Assembly: GCF_002102355.1 (NCBI RefSeq)
Contig: NZ_LQPT01000040.1
Location: forward strand, 150,961-214,960
DNA: 64,000 bases
Reading direction: 5' to 3'
Source: Mycobacterium sherrisii
GTDB lineage: Bacteria; Actinomycetota; Actinomycetes; Mycobacteriales; Mycobacteriaceae
In this document: positions 8,683 through 19,220 of the stretch, in pieces
Layout: the number at the start of each line of letters is the position of its first letter
Position numbering within the stretch: position 1 is the stretch's first letter
Position numbers and translations under genes: made by a program
Notes under the pieces: model-generated
The model's input: the letters and a program-made list of their open reading frames with translations, nothing else
The model's database searches: none
What the model was told of the DNA's origin: nothing

Positions 8683-9843
8683 CTAGTCGACGCGCCGAAG
8701 CGTGTCCGGGGTGAGATCTTTGAGCGTGGGATAACCGTCGACGGCCATGATGAGGTCCGCTTCGGCCAGGATCGAGCGCAGCACGTGCACGATGCCGTCG
8801 ACGCCGCCGAGCGCCAGCCCGTAGGCGTACGGTCGGCCGACGCCCACCGCGGTCGCCCCCAGCGCCAGCGCCTTGACGACGTCGGCGCCGTTGCGGATCC
8901 CCGAGTCGAACAGCACCGGCAGCCCGTCGGCCGCTTCGACCACGCCGGGCAGGCAGTCCAGCGCGGGCAGACCGCCGTTGGCCTGGCGACCGCCGTGCGT
9001 GGAGCAGTAGATGCCGTCGACACCGCCGTCGCGGGCGCGGCGCGCGTCGTCGGGATGGCAGATGCCCTTGATGATTAGGGGCAGGTCGGTCAGCGACCGA
9101 AGCCAGGCGAGGTCGTCCCAGGTCAACGGGTTCCCGAACGTCGTGATCCACTGCAGCACGGCGGCTTGCGGGTCCTCCTCGGGCGGGCGCGCCAGGCTGG
9201 CACGGAAGACCGGATCGCTGGTGTAGTTGCTCAGGCAGTGCCCCCGCAGCTGAGGGAAGTTGGCCGTGCTCAGGTCGCGGGGACGCCATCCCGGAATCCA
9301 GGTGTCCAGGGTGACGATGATGCCCTTGAACCCGGCGGCTTCGGCGCGTTGCACAAGGCTGGCGGCCAGCTCCCGGTCCTTCGGCGTGTACAGCTGGAAG
9401 AAGCCGGGGGTGTCGCCGAATTCGGCGGCGACGTCCTCCAGCGGGTCGGCGGTCAGGGTGGAAACCACCATGGGGACCCCGGTGGCGGCGGCCGCGCGCG
9501 CGGTGGCCAGGTCGCCGTGACCGTCCTGCGCGCAGATGCCGATGACGCCGATCGGCGCCAGGAACACCGGCGACGGCAGGGTCAGGCCGAACAACTCCAC
9601 CGAGAGGTCACGCTCGGCGGCGCCGACGAACATGCGCGGTATCAAGCCCCAGCGATCGAACGCCTCCCGGTTGGCCCGCTGCGTGCGCTCATCGCCGGCA
9701 CCGCCGGTGACGTAGGACCACACCGACGGCGGCATCGCCCGCTCGGCGCGCGTCTCCAACTCCGCGAACGCCATCGGCAGCGCGGGCGCCACCCCACCCA
9801 GTCCCTTGAAGTAGATCTCGTTCTGGTAGTCGCCGTATGCCAT
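8683..9843 (-). CDS. FMN-dependent alpha-hydroxy-acid oxidase, lactate 2-monooxygenase-like
   Basis: The 386-residue flavoenzyme is closely similar throughout to M. smegmatis lactate 2-monooxygenase: [17 protein letters not shown] at the start, [29 protein letters not shown] and [12 protein letters not shown]. That enzyme turns L-lactate and O2 into acetate, CO2 and water. The family motif SNHGGRQ reads STHGGRQ here: the catalytic His and the Arg are kept but the Asn is Thr. A related hydroxy acid may be the true substrate. It lies 33 bp from xerC and 24 bp downstream of the siderophore-interacting protein, all on one strand. I do not recall a counterpart at this place in M. tuberculosis. Confidence 0.85.
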
Positions 9844-9867: not shown

Positions 9868-10731
9868 TCAGGCTTTCGCCGACTGTGCCCCGGATTCCGA
9901 CTCGGCCAGTTCCTTCTTCCATTGCCGGAAGGTCTCCTCGGTGCGGCCGCGGCGCCAGTAGCCCGAGATCGACGACGACCACTTGGCGTCGATGCCGCGC
10001 TCCTTGCGGATGAACGGCCGCAGATTGTGCATGACGGTTTGGGCTTCCCCGTGGATGAAGACATGCACCTGCCCGGGCAACCACAGCGTGGTCGTGACCG
10101 CCTCGATCAGCGGGGCGAAGTCGCCGGCACGGTCCTCGGTCACCAGGTCGGCCCGGCCGCCGCGGTACACCCAGTTCACCTGCATGCCGTCCGGGGCGGT
10201 CAACGGGATCTCGTCTTCGGGACTGGCCACTTCGATGAATGTCTTGCCGACTGCGTTGGGCGGCAATGCCTCCAGCGCGGTGGCGATGGCCGGCAGCGCC
10301 GACTCGTCACCGGCCAGCAGATGCCAGTCGGCCGCGGGATCCGGCGTGTAGGCCCCGCCGGGACCCATCAGATAGATCACCTGACCGGGCTGTGCCGACG
10401 CCGCCCAGACGCCGGCGACGCCGTGCTCGCCGTGCACGACGATGTCCAGCGCGATCCGGCGGGCGGCGGGGTCGACCTTGCGGACGGTGAGGGTCCGCAC
10501 GGACGGCCGCTTCTCGGGCGGAAGCACGGAGAAACTGTCCAGGGTCAACGGCTGCGGCAGCGCGGCGACGTCGATGTCGTCGGCGGCGAAGACCAGCTTG
10601 ACGTACGAATCGGTGAACTTGCTCGGAACAAAGGTGTCGAACTGGTCGCTGCCCAGCGTCACGCGCACCATATGCGGCGCGATCTGCTCAGTACCGACGA
10701 CTTCGAAACGTTGAAGGGGTCGACCTGCCAC
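9868..10731 (-). CDS. viuB: Siderophore-interacting protein (ViuB/SIP family)
   Basis: The 287-residue flavin-dependent ferric-siderophore reductase starts at GTG with GGAGGA upstream, which argues against the longer reading up to 11067. Features are the N-terminal FAD-binding barrel (about 10-125, with RTLTVRKVD), the siderophore-interacting segment MGPGGAYTPDPAADWHLLAGDESALPAI and a C-terminal GYWRRGR motif. It should release iron from imported siderophores (in mycobacteria, mycobactin or carboxymycobactin) in the cytosol by reduction to Fe2+. It matches Rv2895c in position (next to xerC in M. tuberculosis) and in length (283). No IdeR box is evident in the 121 bp before it. Confidence 0.88.
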   Translation of the reverse strand: MAGRPLQRFEVVGTEQIAPHMVRVTLGSDQFDTFVPSKFTDSYVKLVFAADDIDVAALPQPLTLDSFSVLPPEKRPSVRTLTVRKVDPAARRIALDIVVHGEHGVAGVWAASAQPGQVIYLMGPGGAYTPDPAADWHLLAGDESALPAIATALEALPPNAVGKTFIEVASPEDEIPLTAPDGMQVNWVYRGGRADLVTEDRAGDFAPLIEAVTTTLWLPGQVHVFIHGEAQTVMHNLRPFIRKERGIDAKWSSSISGYWRRGRTEETFRQWKKELAESESGAQSAKA

Positions 10732-10852: not shown

Positions 10853-11683
10853 ATGAGCGAGGGAGAGCTGAGCGACGCCGAGAGCTTGCACATTCCACCG
10901 CTGGCGCCGTCGCGGACCCTGTCCGCGGGGATGAAGCCGTTGCTGGTCTTGGCGAAGATTCGCGGCATCATGGACGCCTTTACGCTGTCGGAACCCGAGT
11001 TGACGCTCAGCGAAATCCGCACCCGGACCGGGTATCCGACGTCGACGGTGCAGCGGCTGGTGGCCAATCTGGTGGCCGAGGAGTTTCTCGATCGGGTCGA
11101 CGACCGGTTCCGGATCGGCGCACGGGTCGCCTACTGGGCGGCCCCGGTGGCCAGCAGCATGGGCCTGCTCGATGCGGTGACGCCGGCGTTGGAGTCGCTG
11201 CGCGACGCCAGCGGGGAGACGGCGTGCTTCTTCCGTCGCGAGGGACCGTTCCGGGTGTGTGTCGCACTCGCGGAGACGCGGCACGGGATCCGCCGCGAGA
11301 TGCATATCGGCAAGATCATCCCGCTGCATGTTGGCTCGGCCGGCCGGGTCCTGATGGCCTGGGACGACGACGCGCTCACCGAGGTGCTCGGTTCGAGGCT
11401 GGTCCAATTCACCGACGCGACCGTCGTCGATCCGGATGTGTTGCGCAGCAAGGTCGATGAGACGCGCCGGATGGGTTTCGCGATCACCAGCGGCGAACGT
11501 GACGAGGGGGCGACCGGTGTCGCGGCCCCGGTGTTCGACTCGCACGGCCATGTACTGGGCGCGTTGATGATCAGCGGGCCCAGCTTCCGGTTCTCCCCCG
11601 AACTCGCCGGACGGTGGGCCGACAACGTCGTAGGGGCCGCCGATCAGGTGACGCGCACCCTGGGCGGCCGGCTCCCGTACTGA
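10853..11683 (+). CDS. IclR family transcriptional regulator
   Basis: The 276-residue protein has an N-terminal winged helix (about 30-95, LSEIRTRTGYPTSTVQRLVANLVAEEFLDR) and a C-terminal IclR effector domain. Blocks of that domain are GLLDAVTPALESLRDASGETACFF, the LHVGSAGRVLMAW turn and the GVAAPVFDSHGHVLGALMISGP segment that lines the ligand pocket. GACAAT 6 nt before the ATG suggests leaderless transcription. IclR proteins usually sense small carboxylates and control nearby catabolic genes. Here that could be the MFS/PE-PPE and CoA-transferase/lyase genes to the right, or the lactate-monooxygenase-like gene to the left. Confidence 0.9.
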   Translation: MSEGELSDAESLHIPPLAPSRTLSAGMKPLLVLAKIRGIMDAFTLSEPELTLSEIRTRTGYPTSTVQRLVANLVAEEFLDRVDDRFRIGARVAYWAAPVASSMGLLDAVTPALESLRDASGETACFFRREGPFRVCVALAETRHGIRREMHIGKIIPLHVGSAGRVLMAWDDDALTEVLGSRLVQFTDATVVDPDVLRSKVDETRRMGFAITSGERDEGATGVAAPVFDSHGHVLGALMISGPSFRFSPELAGRWADNVVGAADQVTRTLGGRLPY

Positions 11684-11692
11684 GTGCGGGCG

Positions 11693-12892
11693 CTAGCCGG
11701 CGGCGGGCGGCCGGGCGACGACGGTGGGACGCACGCCGTACCGGGGTGCCCTAGCGCCTCCGGCGCCCACCCCGGTTCCGGCGAGCGGCATGCCGCCGAA
11801 GACGTTGCCGGCGGGCGCGTCCGGGGCCTCCCTGATGTTGCTGACCGCCGGCAGCACAGCCCCGTGGGATGGTTCGGCCAACACGTTCTCGCCCCACCGG
11901 GCCGGAACCGATAGACGACCGACGGAGGTCGCGCCGCCCAACGCTCCTGCGACCGGAGCCCCCAGCCCGGACAGCCCGAGTCCCGCTGCCGGTGGAGCGG
12001 CGATCGCCGGTGCGGCCGCCGCCCCCGCACCCGCCGCGCCGCCCAGTGTGCCTGCGGATTTCGCGATCGTGACGAAGGTGTTGGCGATGCCGGCCGAGAA
12101 GAAGGGCAGGCCCTCGGTGTTGTAGAACGTGGTGGAAAACGGCGCGTAGTAGGTCAACAGGTCACCCAGCCATCCCAGCGGACCCGAGGTTAGCGCGTCC
12201 TTCACCGGGTCCCCCGGTGCCGCAGCCTGCGCACCGGTGGACAACTTCCCCAGCGCCGAGATGATCTGGCTCATCCTGCTGCGCAACGTGTTTTGCGCCG
12301 TGCCCGCCGTCGTACCAGTCGCCGCGGCGACCGAGTTGCTTTGCTGGGCCGCACCATCCGGGTTCGTCGCCTGGGGCGCAGAGGTAAATGGCTTGACCGC
12401 CGCGCTGCTCGCGGATCGACCCGCATAGTTGTACATCGTCGCCGAGTCGGTGGCCCACATCTCTGCGTACCGGGCTTCCAAAGCTGCTATGGCCGCGGCA
12501 TTTTGGCCCAGAACGTTCATGGAGAGCAGCTTCGTCAGATTGCGACGGTTGGCCGCGATCACGGGCGGCGGCACGACGGTGGCATGCGCCGTCTCGAACG
12601 CCGTCGCGGCGGACATGGCTTGGCTGGCCGCATCCTCCACCGCGGCGGCAGTGGTTCGCATCCATTCCACATAGGGGGTCACGGCTTGCACCATCGATGT
12701 CGACGCCTGCCCCAACCACTCCTCGCTGGACAGCGTGTTCAGCACCCTGTCGTAGCCCAGGGCTGCCGAATTCAGCTCGGCGGCAAGGGTATTCCACGCA
12801 GCGGCCGCTCCCGTCATCGACGCCGAGCCGGGACCGGCGTACATCAGCCCCGAGTTGATCTCCGGTGTCAACGCCCCGAAGTCGAGCACCAT
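11693..12892 (-). CDS. PPE family protein, PPE-SVP subgroup
   Basis: The 399-residue protein opens MVLDFGALTPEINSGLMYAG, the canonical PPE start. The 180-residue helical PPE domain contains the W-x-G turn in EEWLGQAS. The C-terminal half carries SVPARW, the SVPxxW signature of the SVP subgroup exported by ESX-5, and ends in a Gly/Ala/Pro-rich tail. It follows the PE gene by 6 bp, the usual PE-PPE pairing, so the two probably form a heterodimer. PPE45 (Rv2892c) lies in this chromosomal neighbourhood in M. tuberculosis, but orthology cannot be settled by eye. The role is likely at the cell surface or outer membrane. Confidence 0.9.
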   Translation of the reverse strand: MVLDFGALTPEINSGLMYAGPGSASMTGAAAAWNTLAAELNSAALGYDRVLNTLSSEEWLGQASTSMVQAVTPYVEWMRTTAAAVEDAASQAMSAATAFETAHATVVPPPVIAANRRNLTKLLSMNVLGQNAAAIAALEARYAEMWATDSATMYNYAGRSASSAAVKPFTSAPQATNPDGAAQQSNSVAAATGTTAGTAQNTLRSRMSQIISALGKLSTGAQAAAPGDPVKDALTSGPLGWLGDLLTYYAPFSTTFYNTEGLPFFSAGIANTFVTIAKSAGTLGGAAGAGAAAAPAIAAPPAAGLGLSGLGAPVAGALGGATSVGRLSVPARWGENVLAEPSHGAVLPAVSNIREAPDAPAGNVFGGMPLAGTGVGAGGARAPRYGVRPTVVARPPAAG

Positions 12893-12898
12893 GCCCCC

Positions 12899-13198
12899 TT
12901 AACCGGCTGCGATCGCGTTGGCGGCCTCGGTCGCCGCGTACGATCCGGAACTGAAAGCCAAAGCGCTGACGAACATTTCGTGAATCACCATCGCTTGTGC
13001 GCTGACCTGTTGATACAGCTGCGCGTGGGCCGCAAACTGCGCCGCGGTCAGTATTGAAACTTGGTCCGCGGCAGCGGGAATCACCTCGGTGGTCGGTACT
13101 GCCACCGCCGCGTTCTGGGCCGCGAGCCCATCGCCGATGGCGCGCAATGCGCCAGCGGCTTCCGTCAATGCTTCGGGTTGCGCGGTAACAAAGGACAT
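12899..13198 (-). CDS. PE family protein
   Basis: The 99-residue protein consists only of the PE domain: MSFVTAQPEALTEAAGALRAIG with the Pro-Glu pair at 8-9, two long helices, and YAATE (YxxxD/E type VII secretion motif) near the C-terminus. AAGGAG lies upstream of the ATG. It should pair with the PPE protein encoded 6 bp downstream and be exported by an ESX system, probably ESX-5, given the partner's SVP signature. Confidence 0.92.
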   Translation of the reverse strand: MSFVTAQPEALTEAAGALRAIGDGLAAQNAAVAVPTTEVIPAAADQVSILTAAQFAAHAQLYQQVSAQAMVIHEMFVSALAFSSGSYAATEAANAIAAG

Positions 13199-13271
13199 AT
13201 GATCTCCTTACTCGATTATCTCCGGTCTCCAGGAGCACTCTGGTGTTCGAAGTATGTTGCGGCTCAGTTAG

Positions 13272-14351
13272 TTACCCGGCCGATGGCGGACGGACGGTGA
13301 AGCGGGGGCGAAATCCGTATTCACGGGGCGGCAGGCCGCCGCGGTCACGTCTGCCACGCGCCGGCGCCAGTTGGCGCAGCAGCGCTTCCGGGCCGTTCGA
13401 CGGGCCGCTAACGCCCCCGGTGTTGATCGCGTGGACGATGGGGTGTTCTGCTGCCGTGGGCGTCGTCGCGGACCAGCCCGGTGGAACCGACAGCGAACCG
13501 ACCTTGGTTGACGAAGCCAGACTTGCCGAGATCAGCCCGCCCCCGAGACCGACGGGGGCCGCGAGGGCGGGCGGTGCGGCCAAGCCCACCGCGGCGGCAC
13601 CGACCAGATGCTCGGGCCACAGCGCGCCCATTTGCAAGAAAATCAGGGATCCCGCATAGACCATCGGCCAGTAGATGACGTCCAAGGGACCGAACAGAAG
13701 TCCCTTAACCTGGCTGGACAAGCTGTTGACCAGGTCGGTCAGCGATGCCGGCGGCGTCGACGGCGCGCCAGTCCCGGTCGCCGCCGCGGCAACCGCCGCG
13801 TGCTGTTGGGTCAGTCCGGCCTGGTCGGTGGTTTGTTGCGGCTCGGCGAACGGGACGAGCTGGGCGGCCGTCGACGCCAGGCCGGCATAGCCGTTCATGG
13901 CCGCGGCGTCCTGGGCCCACATCTGCGCGTAGGCGGCCTCGGTGGCCGCGATGGCCGCGGTGTTCTGTCCCAAGATGTTGGTCGCGATGAGCGCCAGCAG
14001 CTGCGCGCGGTTCTCGGCGATCACCGGCGGCGGGACCGTCATCGCAAAGGCCGTATCGAACGCCGAGGCGACGCTTTTGGCCTGGATGCTGGTTTGTTCG
14101 GCCAGCGCCGCGGCCGCGCTGAGCCAGGAGATGTAGGGCGTGGCGGCCGCCAGCATGGAGCGCGACGCCGGGCCGAACCAAGACGAGCTGGTCAGCTCGG
14201 CCGTCACCGCCGAATAGCTGGCCGCGCTCGAGGACAGCTCGGCCGCCAGGTAATCCCAGGCCGCGGCCGCGGCCATCATGGGTCCCGGCCCGGCACCGGC
14301 GTACATGCGGGCCGAGTTGATCTCCGGCGGTAGTGCCCCGAAATCGATCAC
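13272..14351 (-). CDS. PPE family protein, PPE-SVP subgroup
   Basis: The 359-residue protein starts MIDFGALPPEINSARMYAG. It has the helical PPE domain with W-x-G in SSSWFGPAS, a hydrophobic middle (about 220-290) and SVPPGW near 298, placing it in the SVP subgroup. It begins 16 bp after the stop codon of the MFS permease gene, so it is probably translated from the same mRNA. It is followed after 73 bp by the PE gene. The two PPE proteins share the same N-terminal plan but differ in the C-terminal half, which argues for an old duplication. Confidence 0.9.
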   Translation of the reverse strand: MIDFGALPPEINSARMYAGAGPGPMMAAAAAWDYLAAELSSSAASYSAVTAELTSSSWFGPASRSMLAAATPYISWLSAAAALAEQTSIQAKSVASAFDTAFAMTVPPPVIAENRAQLLALIATNILGQNTAAIAATEAAYAQMWAQDAAAMNGYAGLASTAAQLVPFAEPQQTTDQAGLTQQHAAVAAAATGTGAPSTPPASLTDLVNSLSSQVKGLLFGPLDVIYWPMVYAGSLIFLQMGALWPEHLVGAAAVGLAAPPALAAPVGLGGGLISASLASSTKVGSLSVPPGWSATTPTAAEHPIVHAINTGGVSGPSNGPEALLRQLAPARGRRDRGGLPPREYGFRPRFTVRPPSAG

Positions 14352-14367
14352 CGTTGCTCCCGGGCCG

Positions 14368-15738
14368 TCATGTCGGGTTGATTTCCTCGAGACTGCGGCG
14401 CGAGGTCCGCGGACCCAGCGTCAGGACGGCGACGATGACGACGACCAGCGCGGTTGCCACCACGGTGAACATCACGCCGGCGCCGTGCCGGTCCAGGATC
14501 GGGATGAGAACGAAAGGTGCTGCCCCACTGGATAATCGGGATAACGAGTAGGTCCAACCGACCGCGGTGGCGCGCACGCTCGTCGGGAAGATCTCCGCCT
14601 GGTACACGTGGTAGACGTTGGAGAAGACGTTGCTGGTGGCGGTGGTCAAAAAGCCGAAGAACACGATCGCCACGGCCGATGACTGCGTCGCGAACAGCAG
14701 TCCGAAGACGGCCAGGGCGACGACCGAGCCGACGAGCAGGAACTTGCGTTCGAACCTGGCCAGCAATGGGATGGCCGTCAGTGAGCCGATGGGATAGCCG
14801 AGAAACGACAACGCGCTGAACAACATCGACGACGTGACGGTGTAGCCGCGACTGACCAGCACCAGCGCGGCCAGGGTGCCGAACCCGTAGTAGCCGAAGG
14901 TCTGAAACAGGTGGAACACGATCAGCATCGCCACCCGGCGGTGGTAGGGGGCGCGCCGCAGCAGCGCCGGTTCCCGACGAGGTTCGGCGCGGGAGTCGTC
15001 GGTCACCGCATCGATTCGCAGGGCGGGCACATTCGACCCGGCGGCGAAGATATTCAAGGCCCGCTGGGCCTCGTCGATTCGTCCGGCATACACCAGCCAG
15101 CGCGGCGATTCCACGAGCCAGCGCTTGAGGGCGAACACGATGACGACCCCGCCGGAACCCAGGGCCAGCAGCCACCGCCACCCCGCGATGCCGAGCGGCG
15201 AGTGCTGGGTCAACCACCACGCCAGAAAGCCGACGAAGGGTACGGCGAGAAACGAACACGTGTAGGCGTAAGAGGCCAGCCGGCCACGGTGTTCTTTGGG
15301 TAAAACGTCGGCCAGATAGGAGTCGGCGACCGGATAGACGGCGCCGATGCCCACCCCGGCCAACAAACGCGCGAGTACCAGCAACGCGGGCGACGGCGCG
15401 AACGCGCCGGCCAGCGAGCAGGCGGAAAACCAGCCGAGGCCGAGCAGGAATGCTTTGCGGCGACCCATCCGATCGGCGAGGCGACCGAAAAATGCTGCGC
15501 CGAAGAACATTCCGATGAACGATGACGCCAGAACCAGCTTGAGCGCGGCGCCCCGCACGCCGAAGTCGTGGCTGAGCGTGGCGCTCATGGTGCTGGACAA
15601 GAAGATCTCGTAGATCTCGAAGAACAAGCCGAGTCCGACCGCCACGACGAGCTTGCGGTGCACCGCACCCACCGGCAAGCCGTCCAGCTGGGCGCCCACG
15701 GAATGTCCACTCCCGGTCCTGGTCGGTGCTGTGGTCAT
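14368..15738 (-). CDS. MFS transporter (sugar/organic-acid porter type)
   Basis: The 456-residue permease has twelve predicted membrane segments. The loop 2-3 signature GRLADRMGRRKAFLLG and the central-loop repeat QAEIFPTSVRATAVGWTYSLSRLSSG are typical of the sugar-porter and aromatic-acid/organic-anion symporter branch of the major facilitator superfamily. It probably imports an organic acid with protons across the inner membrane; the substrate is unknown. GAGAGGG precedes the ATG. It leads an apparent MFS-PPE-PE-PPE transcript and is divergent from a CoA-transferase/lyase pair that could use the imported compound. Confidence 0.88.
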   Translation of the reverse strand: MTTAPTRTGSGHSVGAQLDGLPVGAVHRKLVVAVGLGLFFEIYEIFLSSTMSATLSHDFGVRGAALKLVLASSFIGMFFGAAFFGRLADRMGRRKAFLLGLGWFSACSLAGAFAPSPALLVLARLLAGVGIGAVYPVADSYLADVLPKEHRGRLASYAYTCSFLAVPFVGFLAWWLTQHSPLGIAGWRWLLALGSGGVVIVFALKRWLVESPRWLVYAGRIDEAQRALNIFAAGSNVPALRIDAVTDDSRAEPRREPALLRRAPYHRRVAMLIVFHLFQTFGYYGFGTLAALVLVSRGYTVTSSMLFSALSFLGYPIGSLTAIPLLARFERKFLLVGSVVALAVFGLLFATQSSAVAIVFFGFLTTATSNVFSNVYHVYQAEIFPTSVRATAVGWTYSLSRLSSGAAPFVLIPILDRHGAGVMFTVVATALVVVIVAVLTLGPRTSRRSLEEINPT

Positions 15739-15867
15739 GCCGCCCTCTCGTCGTCGAGAGCCCGCCGCCCGAGCGCCGGGTCTACAAAGTGGGTTGTCAT
15801 CCGCATTGTGAGCAAAACGACAAGAACTGACTGTAGCGGGTCACGTCACGGGATGAAAGAGTCATTT

Positions 15868-15901
15868 CCCATATTGTGGGTTCTAATGCACGATGTGGGT
15901 T
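15868..15901. promoter_or_regulatory. Repeated TGTGGGTT boxes between MFS and CoA-transferase genes
   Basis: TGTGGGTT occurs at 15875-15882 and again at 15894-15901, 19 bp apart. The first copy is part of the palindrome CCCA-N5-TGGG (15868-15880). The boxes lie in the divergent promoter region immediately before the CoA-transferase start, a plausible operator for the nearby IclR protein. Binding is inferred. Confidence 0.4.
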
Positions 15902-15913
15902 ATGGAGGCAGAC

Positions 15914-17158
15914 GTGGGTAAGGGAGGAGGCAACGGATTGGATAAGGGACCGCTCGATCGGATACGGGTTCTCGAGCTGGGCAACTACATCGCCGCGCCG
16001 ACCGCGGGACGGTTGTTAGCCGATTTCGGTGCCGAGGTGATCAAGGTCGAGCGGCCGGTGACCGGCGACGAGCTACGGACGTGGCGGCTGTACTCGGGTA
16101 CGACCTCGATGCTGTTTCGCACCATCAACCGCAACAAGAAGTCCGTGGTGATCGACCTCAGCAGCGAATACGGCCAGGCGAGGGTGCGCGAGTTGGCCCG
16201 GGGCTGCGACATCGTGCTGGAGAACTTCCGGCCGGGCACCGTGGAGCGGTGGGGCATCGGCCCCGCCGAGTTGTGCGCGCAGAATCCGGACCTGATCTTC
16301 GTCCGCGTCTCGGCCTACGGGCAGACCGGACCGCGTCGGCACGAACCGGGTTTCGCCGCGGTGGCCGAAGCGATGGCAGGTCTGCGGGCACTCACCGGCG
16401 AACCGGACCGTCCGCCGGCACGCACTGGCGTGTCGATCGGCGACTCCATCGCCGGCATCTATGCCGCCTTCGGCGCGCTCGTCGCCGTGCACCGACGCCA
16501 AAAAGACCGGGTCGCAGGGCGATTGACGTCGATCGCCGACCGCACCGTGGACGTCGCGCTGACCGAGGCGGTCTTCTCGGTGATGGAGTCGCTGGTGCCC
16601 GAGTACGACGCCTACCAGGTGACCCGGACCCGTACCGGCGGTCGCATGGAGGGGATCGCCCCCTCGAATGCCTACCGATGCGCCGACGACCGCTGGCTGG
16701 TGATCGCCGGCAACGGCGACGGCATCTACCGCCGCTTGATGAACGTGATCGGCCGGCCGGACCTGGCCGAAAGCCCCCGCCTGGCCAACAACGCCCAGCG
16801 TTGGCAGGCCCGCGACGAGCTGGACGAGGCGATCAGCGCGTGGACAGCCACCAGGACTGCGCGCGAAGCACTTTCGGCGCTGGGGGCCGCCGCAGTTCCG
16901 GCCGGTCCGATCAACACGGCCGCCGACATCAAGGCCGATGAGCAGTTTCGGGCGCGCGGCATGATCCAGCACCTGCCGGTGTCGACCGGCACCGAGGTCC
17001 TGCCCGCCGTGGCGTTCCCCGGCATCGTGCCCCGCATCGGTGACCACGCCGCGGCGATCCGCAGCCTCGGACCGGATCTCGGTGAGCACACCGAGGAGAT
17101 CCTCGGCGCCCTGCCGCCGGACATTCGCACACTCGACATCAAGGAGGCGGTCCGATGA
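15914..17158 (+). CDS. CaiB/BaiF family (class III) CoA-transferase
   Basis: The 414-residue enzyme starts, as I read it, at GTG with GGAGG 5 nt upstream; in-frame ATGs at 15893 and 15902 are alternatives. Family III signatures are VLELGNYIAAPTAGRLLADFGAEVIKVE at the N-terminus, NRNKKSVVIDL, ENFRPGT and the catalytic aspartate D177 in GVSIGDSIAG. Enzymes of this family move CoA between carboxylic acids through a mixed anhydride. It overlaps the following HMG-CoA-lyase-like gene by 4 bp, so the CoA ester it forms is probably the lyase substrate. Candidate acids are 3-hydroxy-3-methylglutarate or citramalate. Confidence 0.9.
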   Translation: MGKGGGNGLDKGPLDRIRVLELGNYIAAPTAGRLLADFGAEVIKVERPVTGDELRTWRLYSGTTSMLFRTINRNKKSVVIDLSSEYGQARVRELARGCDIVLENFRPGTVERWGIGPAELCAQNPDLIFVRVSAYGQTGPRRHEPGFAAVAEAMAGLRALTGEPDRPPARTGVSIGDSIAGIYAAFGALVAVHRRQKDRVAGRLTSIADRTVDVALTEAVFSVMESLVPEYDAYQVTRTRTGGRMEGIAPSNAYRCADDRWLVIAGNGDGIYRRLMNVIGRPDLAESPRLANNAQRWQARDELDEAISAWTATRTAREALSALGAAAVPAGPINTAADIKADEQFRARGMIQHLPVSTGTEVLPAVAFPGIVPRIGDHAAAIRSLGPDLGEHTEEILGALPPDIRTLDIKEAVR

Positions 17159-18069
17159 CGACCCCGGTGCGGCTACGCGATGTGACCTTGCGTGACGGTT
17201 TGCAACTCACCGGCCAGCTGCTCGATGCGCGCACGAAGGTCGGGCTGGCGCGGTTCCTGCTCGGCGCCGGCATCGACGAGCTGGAGATCGGGGCGATGGC
17301 CCGCCCGGATCTGGTGCCGCCGATGGCCAATACCGTCGAGGTCATCGAGGCGTTGACACCCGAAGAGCGGCAACGGTGTTGGGTGTGGACGGCAACCCCA
17401 CGCGGCATCGCCCGCGCGGTGGCGGCCGGCGCGCAGAACGTCCAGTACTGCCTGTCGGTCAGCGACGCACACAACCGCGCCAACGTGGGCCGCGCCACCA
17501 CGCAGAGCATGGCCGCATTGCCCGAGGCCATCGATATCGCGGCGCTGGGCGGCGCGCGGGTGCAGCTCACCCTGGCGACCGCCTTCACGTGTCCGTATCG
17601 CGGCGCGGTCGACCCGCAGCACGTCGTCAACTTGGTGAGCGACAACCGGACGGCGGGCATCTCGAGCGTGGTGCTGTGTGACACCTTGGGGCAAGCCACG
17701 CCCGACCAAGTGCGGCAACTTGTTTCGCGCGTGCACGAGGTGGCACCCGAGCACGAGATCGTCTTCCACGGGCACGACACCTGGGGGCTGGGGGTGGCCA
17801 ACACCATGGCCGCGATCCAGGCCGGGGCGGCCGTGGTCGACGGCGCGCTCGGCGGCCTGGGCGGTTGCCCGTTCGCCCCGGGTGCCAGCGGTAACACGTC
17901 GACCGAAGACCTGTTGTTCGCGCTGCAACCGGCGTGGCTGACCCCCTCGGTGTTCTCCGACGTCGTCACGGCCGGCGCGCAGATCCTGGCCCGGCTCGGC
18001 GAACCCAACCGGTCCCGGGCGGCCGAGGGCGCACGCTCGACGGCCGACGTGTTCCCCTGGGTCACCTAG
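17155..18069 (+). CDS. HMG-CoA lyase family protein
   Basis: The 304-residue TIM-barrel lyase has all catalytic elements of 3-hydroxy-3-methylglutaryl-CoA lyase: R13-D14 in LRDGLQ, the metal ligands H205/H207 in FHGHDTWG and the essential C238 in GLGGCPFAPGASGN. The expected reaction is cleavage of a 3-hydroxy-3-methylacyl-CoA to acetyl-CoA plus acetoacetate, or of citramalyl-CoA to acetyl-CoA plus pyruvate. It is translationally coupled to the CoA-transferase (ATGA overlap). Its stop codon overlaps that of the convergent dprA in the tetranucleotide CTAG. Confidence 0.9.
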   Translation: MTTPVRLRDVTLRDGLQLTGQLLDARTKVGLARFLLGAGIDELEIGAMARPDLVPPMANTVEVIEALTPEERQRCWVWTATPRGIARAVAAGAQNVQYCLSVSDAHNRANVGRATTQSMAALPEAIDIAALGGARVQLTLATAFTCPYRGAVDPQHVVNLVSDNRTAGISSVVLCDTLGQATPDQVRQLVSRVHEVAPEHEIVFHGHDTWGLGVANTMAAIQAGAAVVDGALGGLGGCPFAPGASGNTSTEDLLFALQPAWLTPSVFSDVVTAGAQILARLGEPNRSRAAEGARSTADVFPWVT

Positions 18070-19220
18070 CCCCCTCCCGTGCGGGCGCGGCGGGCCCGCA
18101 CGATGCGCCATCGCCCGTCGTCGCGTTCGGCCAGCCCGCTCAGCTCGAGGATCGCCAACGGGCCCAGCACCTGCTCGGGCATCAGGCTTGCGGCGACGGC
18201 TATTTCGTCGACGGAGACCGCACCGCGACCGGGCAGCGCCTCGTACACCCGGCGCTCGGACTCGCCCAGCCCGTCGAGCTCGGTGGCCGGCCGCTCCTCG
18301 TCGCCGGCGAGTTCGCCGATCCGCCCGACCAGCTCGACGATGTCGTCGGCGCGGGTGATCAGCTCGGCCCCGTTGCGCAGCAGCGCGTGACACCCCGCCG
18401 ACGCCGACGAGGTGATTGGGCCCGGCACTGCGGCCACCACCCGGCCCAGCGCACGGGCCCAGGCCGCGGTGTTTGCGGCCCCGCTGCGCAAGCCGGCCTC
18501 CACCACCACGGCGGCCCCGGCCACGGCGGCGACCAGGCGATTGCGGGTCAGGAACCGGTACCGCGCCGGACGCGTGCCGGGCGGATACTCGCTGAACAGC
18601 AACCCGTGCTGGCCGATGCGGTGCAGCAATGCCGAATGCCCTGCCGGATAAGGGATGTCGATGCCGCCGGCCAGCACCGCCACCGTGATCCCCTCGCACC
18701 GCAACGCCGCGCGGTGCGCCGCACCGTCGATACCGTAGGCGCCGCCGGAGACCACCGCGATGTCGCGCTGGACCAGCCCCGCCGCCAGATCCCCCGCGAT
18801 GTGCTCGCCGTAGGCCGTGGCCGCCCGGGTACCGACCAGCGCGGCCGCGCGCGGTGTCACCTCGTCCAGGCGCGCCGGGCCCAGCGCCCACAACACCAGC
18901 GGTGGTGCGCCCTGCGGTCGGGCCGCGGCACCGCCGAACGCCGAGAACGCCAGCGCCGGCCACTCCGGGCAATCCGGGGTGAGCAACCGGCCGCCGCGAC
19001 GGCCGAGCAGCTCGAGATCGGCGGCGGCGTTGTCGATGTCGCGTCTGGCCGCGGTGCGCCGGAGCAGGTCGTCGCCGACCAGTCCGCGCCGCACCCGATC
19101 GGCCGCCTCCACCGGGCCGACGCAGTGCACCAGGGCCGCCAGTGGCGGGCACGGCGGTTCGGCCACGCGTGACAGATATGCCCAGGCCCGGGCCGTCGGA
19201 TCGGTGCTGGTCGCGGTCAT
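18066..19220 (-). CDS. dprA: DNA-processing protein DprA
   Basis: The 384-residue protein has the DprA Rossmann-like core: AALVGTRAATAYGEHIA, VSGGAYGIDGAAHRAAL, AVLAGGIDIPYPAGHSALLHRI and FLTRNRLVAAVAGAAVVVEA. It ends in a winged-helix-like domain (about 310-380). DprA loads RecA on incoming single-stranded DNA. Mycobacteria keep the gene although natural transformation is not generally seen. It follows comM with a 4-bp overlap and matches Rv2896c in place and length (389). I chose the ATG at 19220 because it overlaps the comM stop, although the frame stays open further upstream. Confidence 0.92.
   Translation of the reverse strand: MTATSTDPTARAWAYLSRVAEPPCPPLAALVHCVGPVEAADRVRRGLVGDDLLRRTAARRDIDNAAADLELLGRRGGRLLTPDCPEWPALAFSAFGGAAARPQGAPPLVLWALGPARLDEVTPRAAALVGTRAATAYGEHIAGDLAAGLVQRDIAVVSGGAYGIDGAAHRAALRCEGITVAVLAGGIDIPYPAGHSALLHRIGQHGLLFSEYPPGTRPARYRFLTRNRLVAAVAGAAVVVEAGLRSGAANTAAWARALGRVVAAVPGPITSSASAGCHALLRNGAELITRADDIVELVGRIGELAGDEERPATELDGLGESERRVYEALPGRGAVSVDEIAVAASLMPEQVLGPLAILELSGLAERDDGRWRIVRARRARTGGG

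Follow-up and report, generated by a model that had tools for sequence, protein, structure and literature searches.

A conserved seven-gene block in mycobacteria that links PE/PPE proteins to a putative uptake-and-cleavage system for a branched hydroxy-dicarboxylate

The interval between viuB and dprA in a 64,000-nucleotide stretch of Mycobacterium sherrisii DNA (hereafter the window; it belongs to a 5.56-Mb genome, whose relatives are Mycobacterium by name) is filled by a block of seven genes, encoding: an IclR-type regulator, a PPE, a PE and a second PPE protein, a permease of the major facilitator superfamily (MFS), a class III coenzyme A (CoA)-transferase and an acyl-CoA lyase. On balance, and with modest confidence, we read the block as a system under local regulation that takes up and cleaves a branched 3-hydroxy-dicarboxylate, and to which PE/PPE proteins were added, probably for passage of the outer membrane. 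The substrate would be 3-hydroxy-3-methylglutarate, citramalate or a hydroxymethyl analogue. The PE/PPE proteins would help this acid across the outer membrane, the MFS permease would then move it through the inner membrane, the CoA-transferase would form its CoA ester, probably with succinyl-CoA as the donor, and the lyase would split the ester into acetyl-CoA and a keto acid; the IclR protein would sense the acid or the product and control the divergent promoter of permease and CoA-transferase. The substrate class, the direction of transport, the single transcript, the role of the PE/PPE proteins and the ligand and site of the regulator are what we infer. More tentatively, and at somewhat less than even confidence, the PE/PPE trio may be dedicated to a single solute: a local IclR protein and one divergent promoter would govern PPE-PE-PPE for the outer membrane, the permease for the inner one and the enzymes that act on a branched hydroxy-diacid, and porin-rich relatives would manage with the same core but no PE/PPE. 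The genes of the block and its two flanks are:

10853..11683, plus strand: IclR-type regulator, 276 amino acids (PF09339 and PF01614, both over cut-off; 82-91% identical in genomes that carry the block)
11693..12892, minus strand: PPE protein (PPE-SVP type), 399 amino acids (PF00823, PF12484)
12899..13198, minus strand: PE protein, 99 amino acids (PF00934), 6 bp before the PPE gene at 11693..12892
13272..14351, minus strand: PPE protein (PPE-SVP type), 359 amino acids, GTG start (PF00823, PF12484)
14368..15738, minus strand: MFS permease, 456 amino acids (PF00083/PF07690)
15914..17158 (longest open reading frame from 15893), plus strand: class III CoA-transferase (PF02515, 382 bits)
17155..18069, plus strand: HMGL-like acyl-CoA lyase, 304 amino acids (PF00682, 147 bits)
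9868..10731, minus strand: viuB, flank on the IclR side
18066..19220, minus strand: dprA, flank on the lyase side

Open reading frames and Pfam assignments place the seven genes, with the flanking IclR gene, at the coordinates and in the layout given by a first-pass annotation of this DNA, and its 16-bp gap between the MFS and PPE genes and 4-bp overlap of CoA-transferase and lyase genes are both correct. Between the minus-strand genes no terminator-like site was found, both matches on that strand falling within coding sequence. For the CoA-transferase, the GTG at 15914 is a more likely start than the ATG at 15893, given the alignment of orthologue starts and the last conserved DNA motif of the upstream spacer, which spans 15887-15899 and includes that ATG.

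The block is conserved as a unit. The first-pass annotation had proposed to seek the same gene set in other mycobacterial genomes, and it was found in 14 distinct genomes (the list of relatives merged with that of genomes with an MFS permease at least 70% identical); order and orientation of all seven genes are identical in all 14, which makes the arrangement more than chance. Of 262 relatives the best 80 were kept. Eleven of these encode a lyase of 72-84% identity, namely M. montefiorense, M. triplex, M. genavense, M. colombiense GF76 and seven further strains, and each of them carries the complete block. An MFS permease of at least 70% identity occurs in 12 of 396 genomes of the genus, that of the window included, and a lyase of at least 70% in six of the 198 sampled. 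Orthologues of the PPE proteins, searched with scoring limited to the 9-10 top first-look candidates of each genome, occur in 6/196 genomes at 73% or more (PPE 11693..12892; next best match 59%) and in 6/196 at 69% or more (PPE 13272..14351), all with the block, and the close orthologues of lyase and both PPEs coincide on the same six genomes. IclR matches at E <= 1e-70 are present in 19 of the 196 genomes, within 6 kb of the lyase in 18 of these, the 19th being a broken remnant (locus L234, see below). By order and co-occurrence, the proposal that IclR regulator, enzyme pair and permease form one evolutionary unit, with the PE/PPE genes linked to it, is borne out. The frames of MFS and one PPE, and perhaps that of the CoA-transferase, are broken in M. 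genavense, which says little about the block because the flanking genes viuB and comM are no longer intact there either; sp. 852002-51057 has a break in one PPE frame. Two strains have additional gene pieces. Strain 1465703.0 carries a degenerate second copy with parts of lyase, CoA-transferase and MFS (L176:7453-8607). Strain E1214 has its full block on a contig where it adjoins a dprA fragment, and elsewhere a second MFS gene (70%) by dprA with a long, different PPE gene further on and no CoA-transferase or lyase (L150:9144-14848); we rejected this as a second cassette, because an opposite-strand open reading frame separates the MFS and the PPE gene.

The site of the block was read from the viuB side in 39 non-block genomes, hand-picked from the top of one search result. 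In 36 of them viuB adjoins dprA (23-275 bp; the 750 printed for L218 is owing to a split dprA match). The three exceptions are L190, which retains an iclR remnant (301 bp of promoter and start, 79%), L196, a short contig with no dprA within 2.4 kb, and L220, where a 2.0-kb insert with a transposon-type open reading frame (TnpB-like, by eye) lies between the two genes (L220:7471-9468). Further remnants are a 108-bp stretch from the 3' end of the lyase gene in L204 (76%; it aligns with a score of 111, vs at most 61 for shuffles) and an iclR with a stop plus 63 bp of CoA-transferase in L234 (9696-10347), which belongs to a 3.2-Mb genome with a broken viuB. We regard L189 as a weak remnant: it matches the viuB-iclR spacer over 114 bp (86%) and, weakly, the lyase end (43 vs 38), and clean junctions retain some of this spacer too. 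Block genomes stand in separate clades among empty ones in a FastTree phylogeny of viuB, dprA and comM (no support values shown); the most parsimonious view is that an older block was repeatedly lost as a whole, and at some tips it may have been gained by recombination. Pairwise omega is well under 1 for all seven genes, with medians of 0.11 (IclR), 0.14 (PE), 0.16 (CoA-transferase), 0.19 (MFS), 0.22 (lyase) and 0.29 and 0.32 for the PPEs (0.315 for PPE 11693..12892), compared to 0.13-0.21 for the flanks. On the far side of viuB, towards xerC, the window encodes an FMN-dependent dehydrogenase (8683-9843) that is kin to L-lactate dehydrogenase and MftD models, under their cut-offs.

The enzymes suggest the class of the substrate. 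In the alignment the lyase keeps the equivalents of R41, D42, E72, D204, H233, H235, C266, N275 and E279 of human 3-hydroxy-3-methylglutaryl (HMG)-CoA lyase, in what we take to be the human numbering and roles, and these nine catalytic residues are kept in 108/108 aligned lyase sequences (some being repeat fetches of one genome), just as the first-pass annotation had stated. Its description of the protein as an HMG-CoA-lyase homologue, shared by the solved chains 2cw6, 1ydo and 2ftp, stands as to family and catalytic residues and fails as to type: the lyase scores 210.7 against the curated cut-off of 246 of PRK05692 (HMG-CoA lyase), and Ala and Val take the places of Ser75 and Ser201. The first position holds Ala in 17/17 close lyases (13 distinct genomes) vs Ser in 90/90 relatives; the second holds Val in 15/17 and Met in 2/17 close lyases and Val in 90/90 relatives. 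The three HMG-CoA lyase chains have Ser at both positions and 6nds has Ser and Thr. Given the two replaced serines and the missed cut-off, the block lyase is, judged from its sequence, not a standard HMG-CoA lyase; 3-hydroxy-3-methylglutarate would be a possible substrate, weakened by these same two features, and as a certain substrate we set it aside. It is because of the replaced serines that we commit to a class, the branched 3-hydroxy-dicarboxylates. The CoA-transferase, a member of PF02515, finds its best named family in succinate-glutarate CoA-transferase (NF052585), with 251 bits where the cut-off is 750, and its second-best solved chain in succinate-hydroxymethylglutarate CoA-transferase (9br6); an Asp that we presume to be catalytic aligns with those of 4ed9 and 9br6. 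By Pfam, none of the seven genes encodes an itaconyl-CoA hydratase (the search covered the block and not the rest of the genome). Itaconate as a direct substrate was accordingly set aside, being unlikely from the block alone.

The same enzyme core is found well outside the block group. Across 69 named loci with a lyase 61-67% identical, from Arthrobacter, Nocardia, Corynebacterium and other Actinobacteria, the CoA-transferase lies beside the lyase in 65, an IclR gene is present at 49% or more in 19 and at 39-40% in three more, and no PE/PPE match was found. This core resembles the block in its enzyme pair and, often, its IclR protein, and differs in its neighbours, in having no PE/PPE match and in Ser for Ala at one position of the active site. 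The earlier expectation that PE/PPE and enzyme genes would not occur in unlinked combinations thus holds on the PE/PPE side, there being no close PPE orthologue outside the block in the genomes and candidates searched, and not on the enzyme side, where the pair occurs without PE/PPE in one mycobacterial version with MFS and IclR and in many core versions elsewhere. As the enzymes also occur without them, the PE/PPE proteins are, by gene content, an accessory layer on the enzyme core and not a part of it. Neighbours of these enzymes were surveyed in 73 loci (counted as protein clusters, with 1-3 members of each scanned): 24 have a TauD-type dioxygenase, 15 a GntP/CitMHS-type permease, five an ABC importer, three a glycerate kinase and two a 2-hydroxyacid dehydrogenase; the importer genes strengthen the logic of uptake followed by catabolism. 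In a tree of HMGL proteins the block lyases fall together with weak support (0.31) and their sister is not settled. The genome of the window itself contains two more such pairs: one 61% identical to that of the block (G000:C104, L136:7591-9887), with AMP-ligase-, amidohydrolase- and SDR-like genes nearby (by eye) and no IclR or MFS match within 11 kb, and one on C33 (L137; lyase 38%, CoA-transferase 48%).

The PE and PPE proteins have the features of type VII secretion substrates, with PE and PPE domains and the motifs YxxxD/E and WxG, which we take to be secretion motifs. The closest solved chains are PE8 of 5xfs for the PE and PPE15 of 5xfs for PPE 13272..14351. Among the 14 block genomes, Y87 and E91 of the PE are invariant in the 11 sequences aligned, and WxG is invariant in both PPEs (W58/G60 in 11 and W59/G61 in nine aligned sequences). 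The available text of one study holds that some PE/PPE proteins act in nutrient transport and that their number is higher in the absence of porins (PMC13315784). Genome-wide searches gave 21-39 PPE-SVP and 0-1 MspA matches in 12 block genomes, and no PPE-SVP (one in a single case) and 1-15 MspA matches in 20 genomes that have an MFS homologue lacking adjacent PE/PPE, a contrast that fits PE/PPE proteins replacing porins. The stronger statement that block genomes lack MspA was rejected, as 11 of the 12 have one MspA-family match, fewer than the others.

For the regulator, which has both the HTH_IclR and the IclR_C domain, a candidate site was found in the spacer between the MFS and CoA-transferase genes:

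15869..15899, no strand assigned: candidate operator with CCATATTGTGGG and TGCACGATGTGGG, which rank with the best-conserved 12-mers of this spacer in 13 loci

Conserved in the spacer across 13-14 loci are GACTGTAGCGG, CCATATTGTGGG and TGCACGATGTGGG. In the own genome CCATANTGTGGG occurs once, in this spacer (three times for the backwards control), and TGCACNATGTGGG four times (backwards control 0); 30 of 100 shuffles of the window also yield a motif match with one mismatch. In view of these controls it is conservation, not counts, that argues for the operator, to which we infer that the IclR protein binds. By eye no operator motif precedes the PE or IclR gene, and within the window both motifs occur only in the MFS/CoA-transferase spacer.

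The permease gives mixed indications. TIGR00895 (aromatic acid/H+ symporter) is the best of 55 matching families, at 160.6 against a cut-off of 418.55, and SLC22-family anion transporters rank lower among its solved-chain matches. Homologues at 60-64% identity have a sensor kinase/regulator pair nearby in eight of the 20 loci fetched; the one pair scanned (L155) matched DcuS/DcuR models best, under their cut-offs, which hints at dicarboxylates.

Several observations weigh against the proposed uptake system. The best Pfam match of the MFS permease is Sugar_tr and its best solved chain the glucose transporter GlcP, so its own sequence does not indicate a carboxylate. The relatives of the lyase may not reveal its substrate, because the Ala at the Ser75 position is not common to them, and four genomes (G055, G133, G176, G194) have a lyase at 60-61% but no IclR match of the above quality. 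The gap between the PE gene and the MFS-side PPE gene (PPEa) measures 63-133 bp, leaving room for a promoter of its own; its ends are conserved, and 54% of its kept columns reach at least 0.9, vs 37% in the MFS/CoA-transferase spacer, a figure to be read with the coding or Shine-Dalgarno-like nature of the gap edges, and an internal promoter could lie there. PE/PPE genes are numerous, and mere linkage would make them disappear along with the block. The porin/PPE contrast tracks what we take to be the probable split between slow and fast growers, as the named species are labelled, and is confounded by descent. Finally, the available text of a study on M. marinum argues that PPE51 is loosely surface-bound and not an integral channel (PMC12607722).

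The alternative that survives best, although we think it unlikely, is that IclR, MFS, CoA-transferase and lyase make up the working cassette and that PPE-PE-PPE are passengers inserted between MFS and IclR, with a surface, immune or envelope role. A mycobacterial genome of 91% completeness and 7% contamination (L151) indeed has IclR, MFS, CoA-transferase and lyase at 63-64% in the layout of the block without PE/PPE, its IclR and that of L154 cluster with the block IclR (support 1.0), the omegas of the PPEs top those of the block, and PPE-SVP proteins are abundant in block genomes. Against this reading, all three PE/PPE genes are kept in 14/14 blocks, which are spread over several clades of the viuB/dprA/comM tree, and none of the candidates scored in the 196 genomes gave a close PPE orthologue elsewhere.

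We find it improbable that the enzymes serve an internal breakdown of leucine or sterol type, with the MFS permease exporting or balancing a product and PE/PPE aiding its release. This idea draws on the P450-, FadD- (acyl-CoA-ligase-) and thiolase-like genes (by eye) that share the locus with MFS homologues in 8/23 cases (L151, L152-L154, L165, L167, L169 and L170, with IclR also present in L151 and L154), an arrangement that we presume to resemble a sterol side-chain locus, and on the TauD-type neighbours, which suggest acids made inside the cell. The block, however, has no acyl-CoA dehydrogenase or carboxylase, a CoA-transferase suits free acids, as after import, and importer-type transporters stand beside some relatives.

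In two relatives (L022:7146-13709, L045:7150-13732) one locus combines a GntP-type permease, CoA-transferase and lyase with a 2-hydroxyacid dehydrogenase, a glycerate kinase and IclR, which hints at hydroxypyruvate as the lyase product there. That these relatives, and perhaps the block too, act on 2-hydroxymethyl-malate (itatartarate, a fungal product according to the available text of PMC9875883, in which hydroxypyruvate is not mentioned) to give acetyl-CoA and hydroxypyruvate is the least credible alternative: the dehydrogenase of this group is glyoxylate/hydroxypyruvate reductase-like, but both genes occur in only 2/73 loci (the kinase in three), and the block has neither and a lyase that differs at the Ser/Ala position.

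The uptake-and-cleavage system that we propose can be compared with several described ones. With PPE51, PE15/PPE20 and others of M. tuberculosis it shares the PE/PPE families, the mycobacterial host and a presumed role at the outer membrane, as far as the available texts describe these (PMC13315784, PMC12607722); in contrast to those transporters, the PE/PPE genes here share a block with genes for a regulator, a permease and catabolic enzymes. The Ict-Ich-Ccl cluster for itaconate and the Rv2498c pathway likewise pair a CoA-transferase with a C-C lyase that yields acetyl-CoA, according to the parts of the sources at hand (PMC12290011, PMC6689899). The block differs from the former in having no hydratase and from the latter in its lyase, which is of the TIM-barrel HMGL type and has no sequence similarity to Rv2498c as characterized in the accessible part of PMC6689899. 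In the open-licence literature, covered mostly as listings and the starts of abstracts, we recognised no paper that describes this layout.

PE and PPE proteins form a large family with substrates that are mostly unknown, and the block offers a concrete and testable setting for their role: it names a likely class of solute and offers an inducer to seek. Natural controls exist in the species that lost the block and in the relative whose version of the core has no PE/PPE. Should removal of the PE/PPE trio alone abolish growth on the acid, the case for a PE/PPE route devoted to one solute would be clear.

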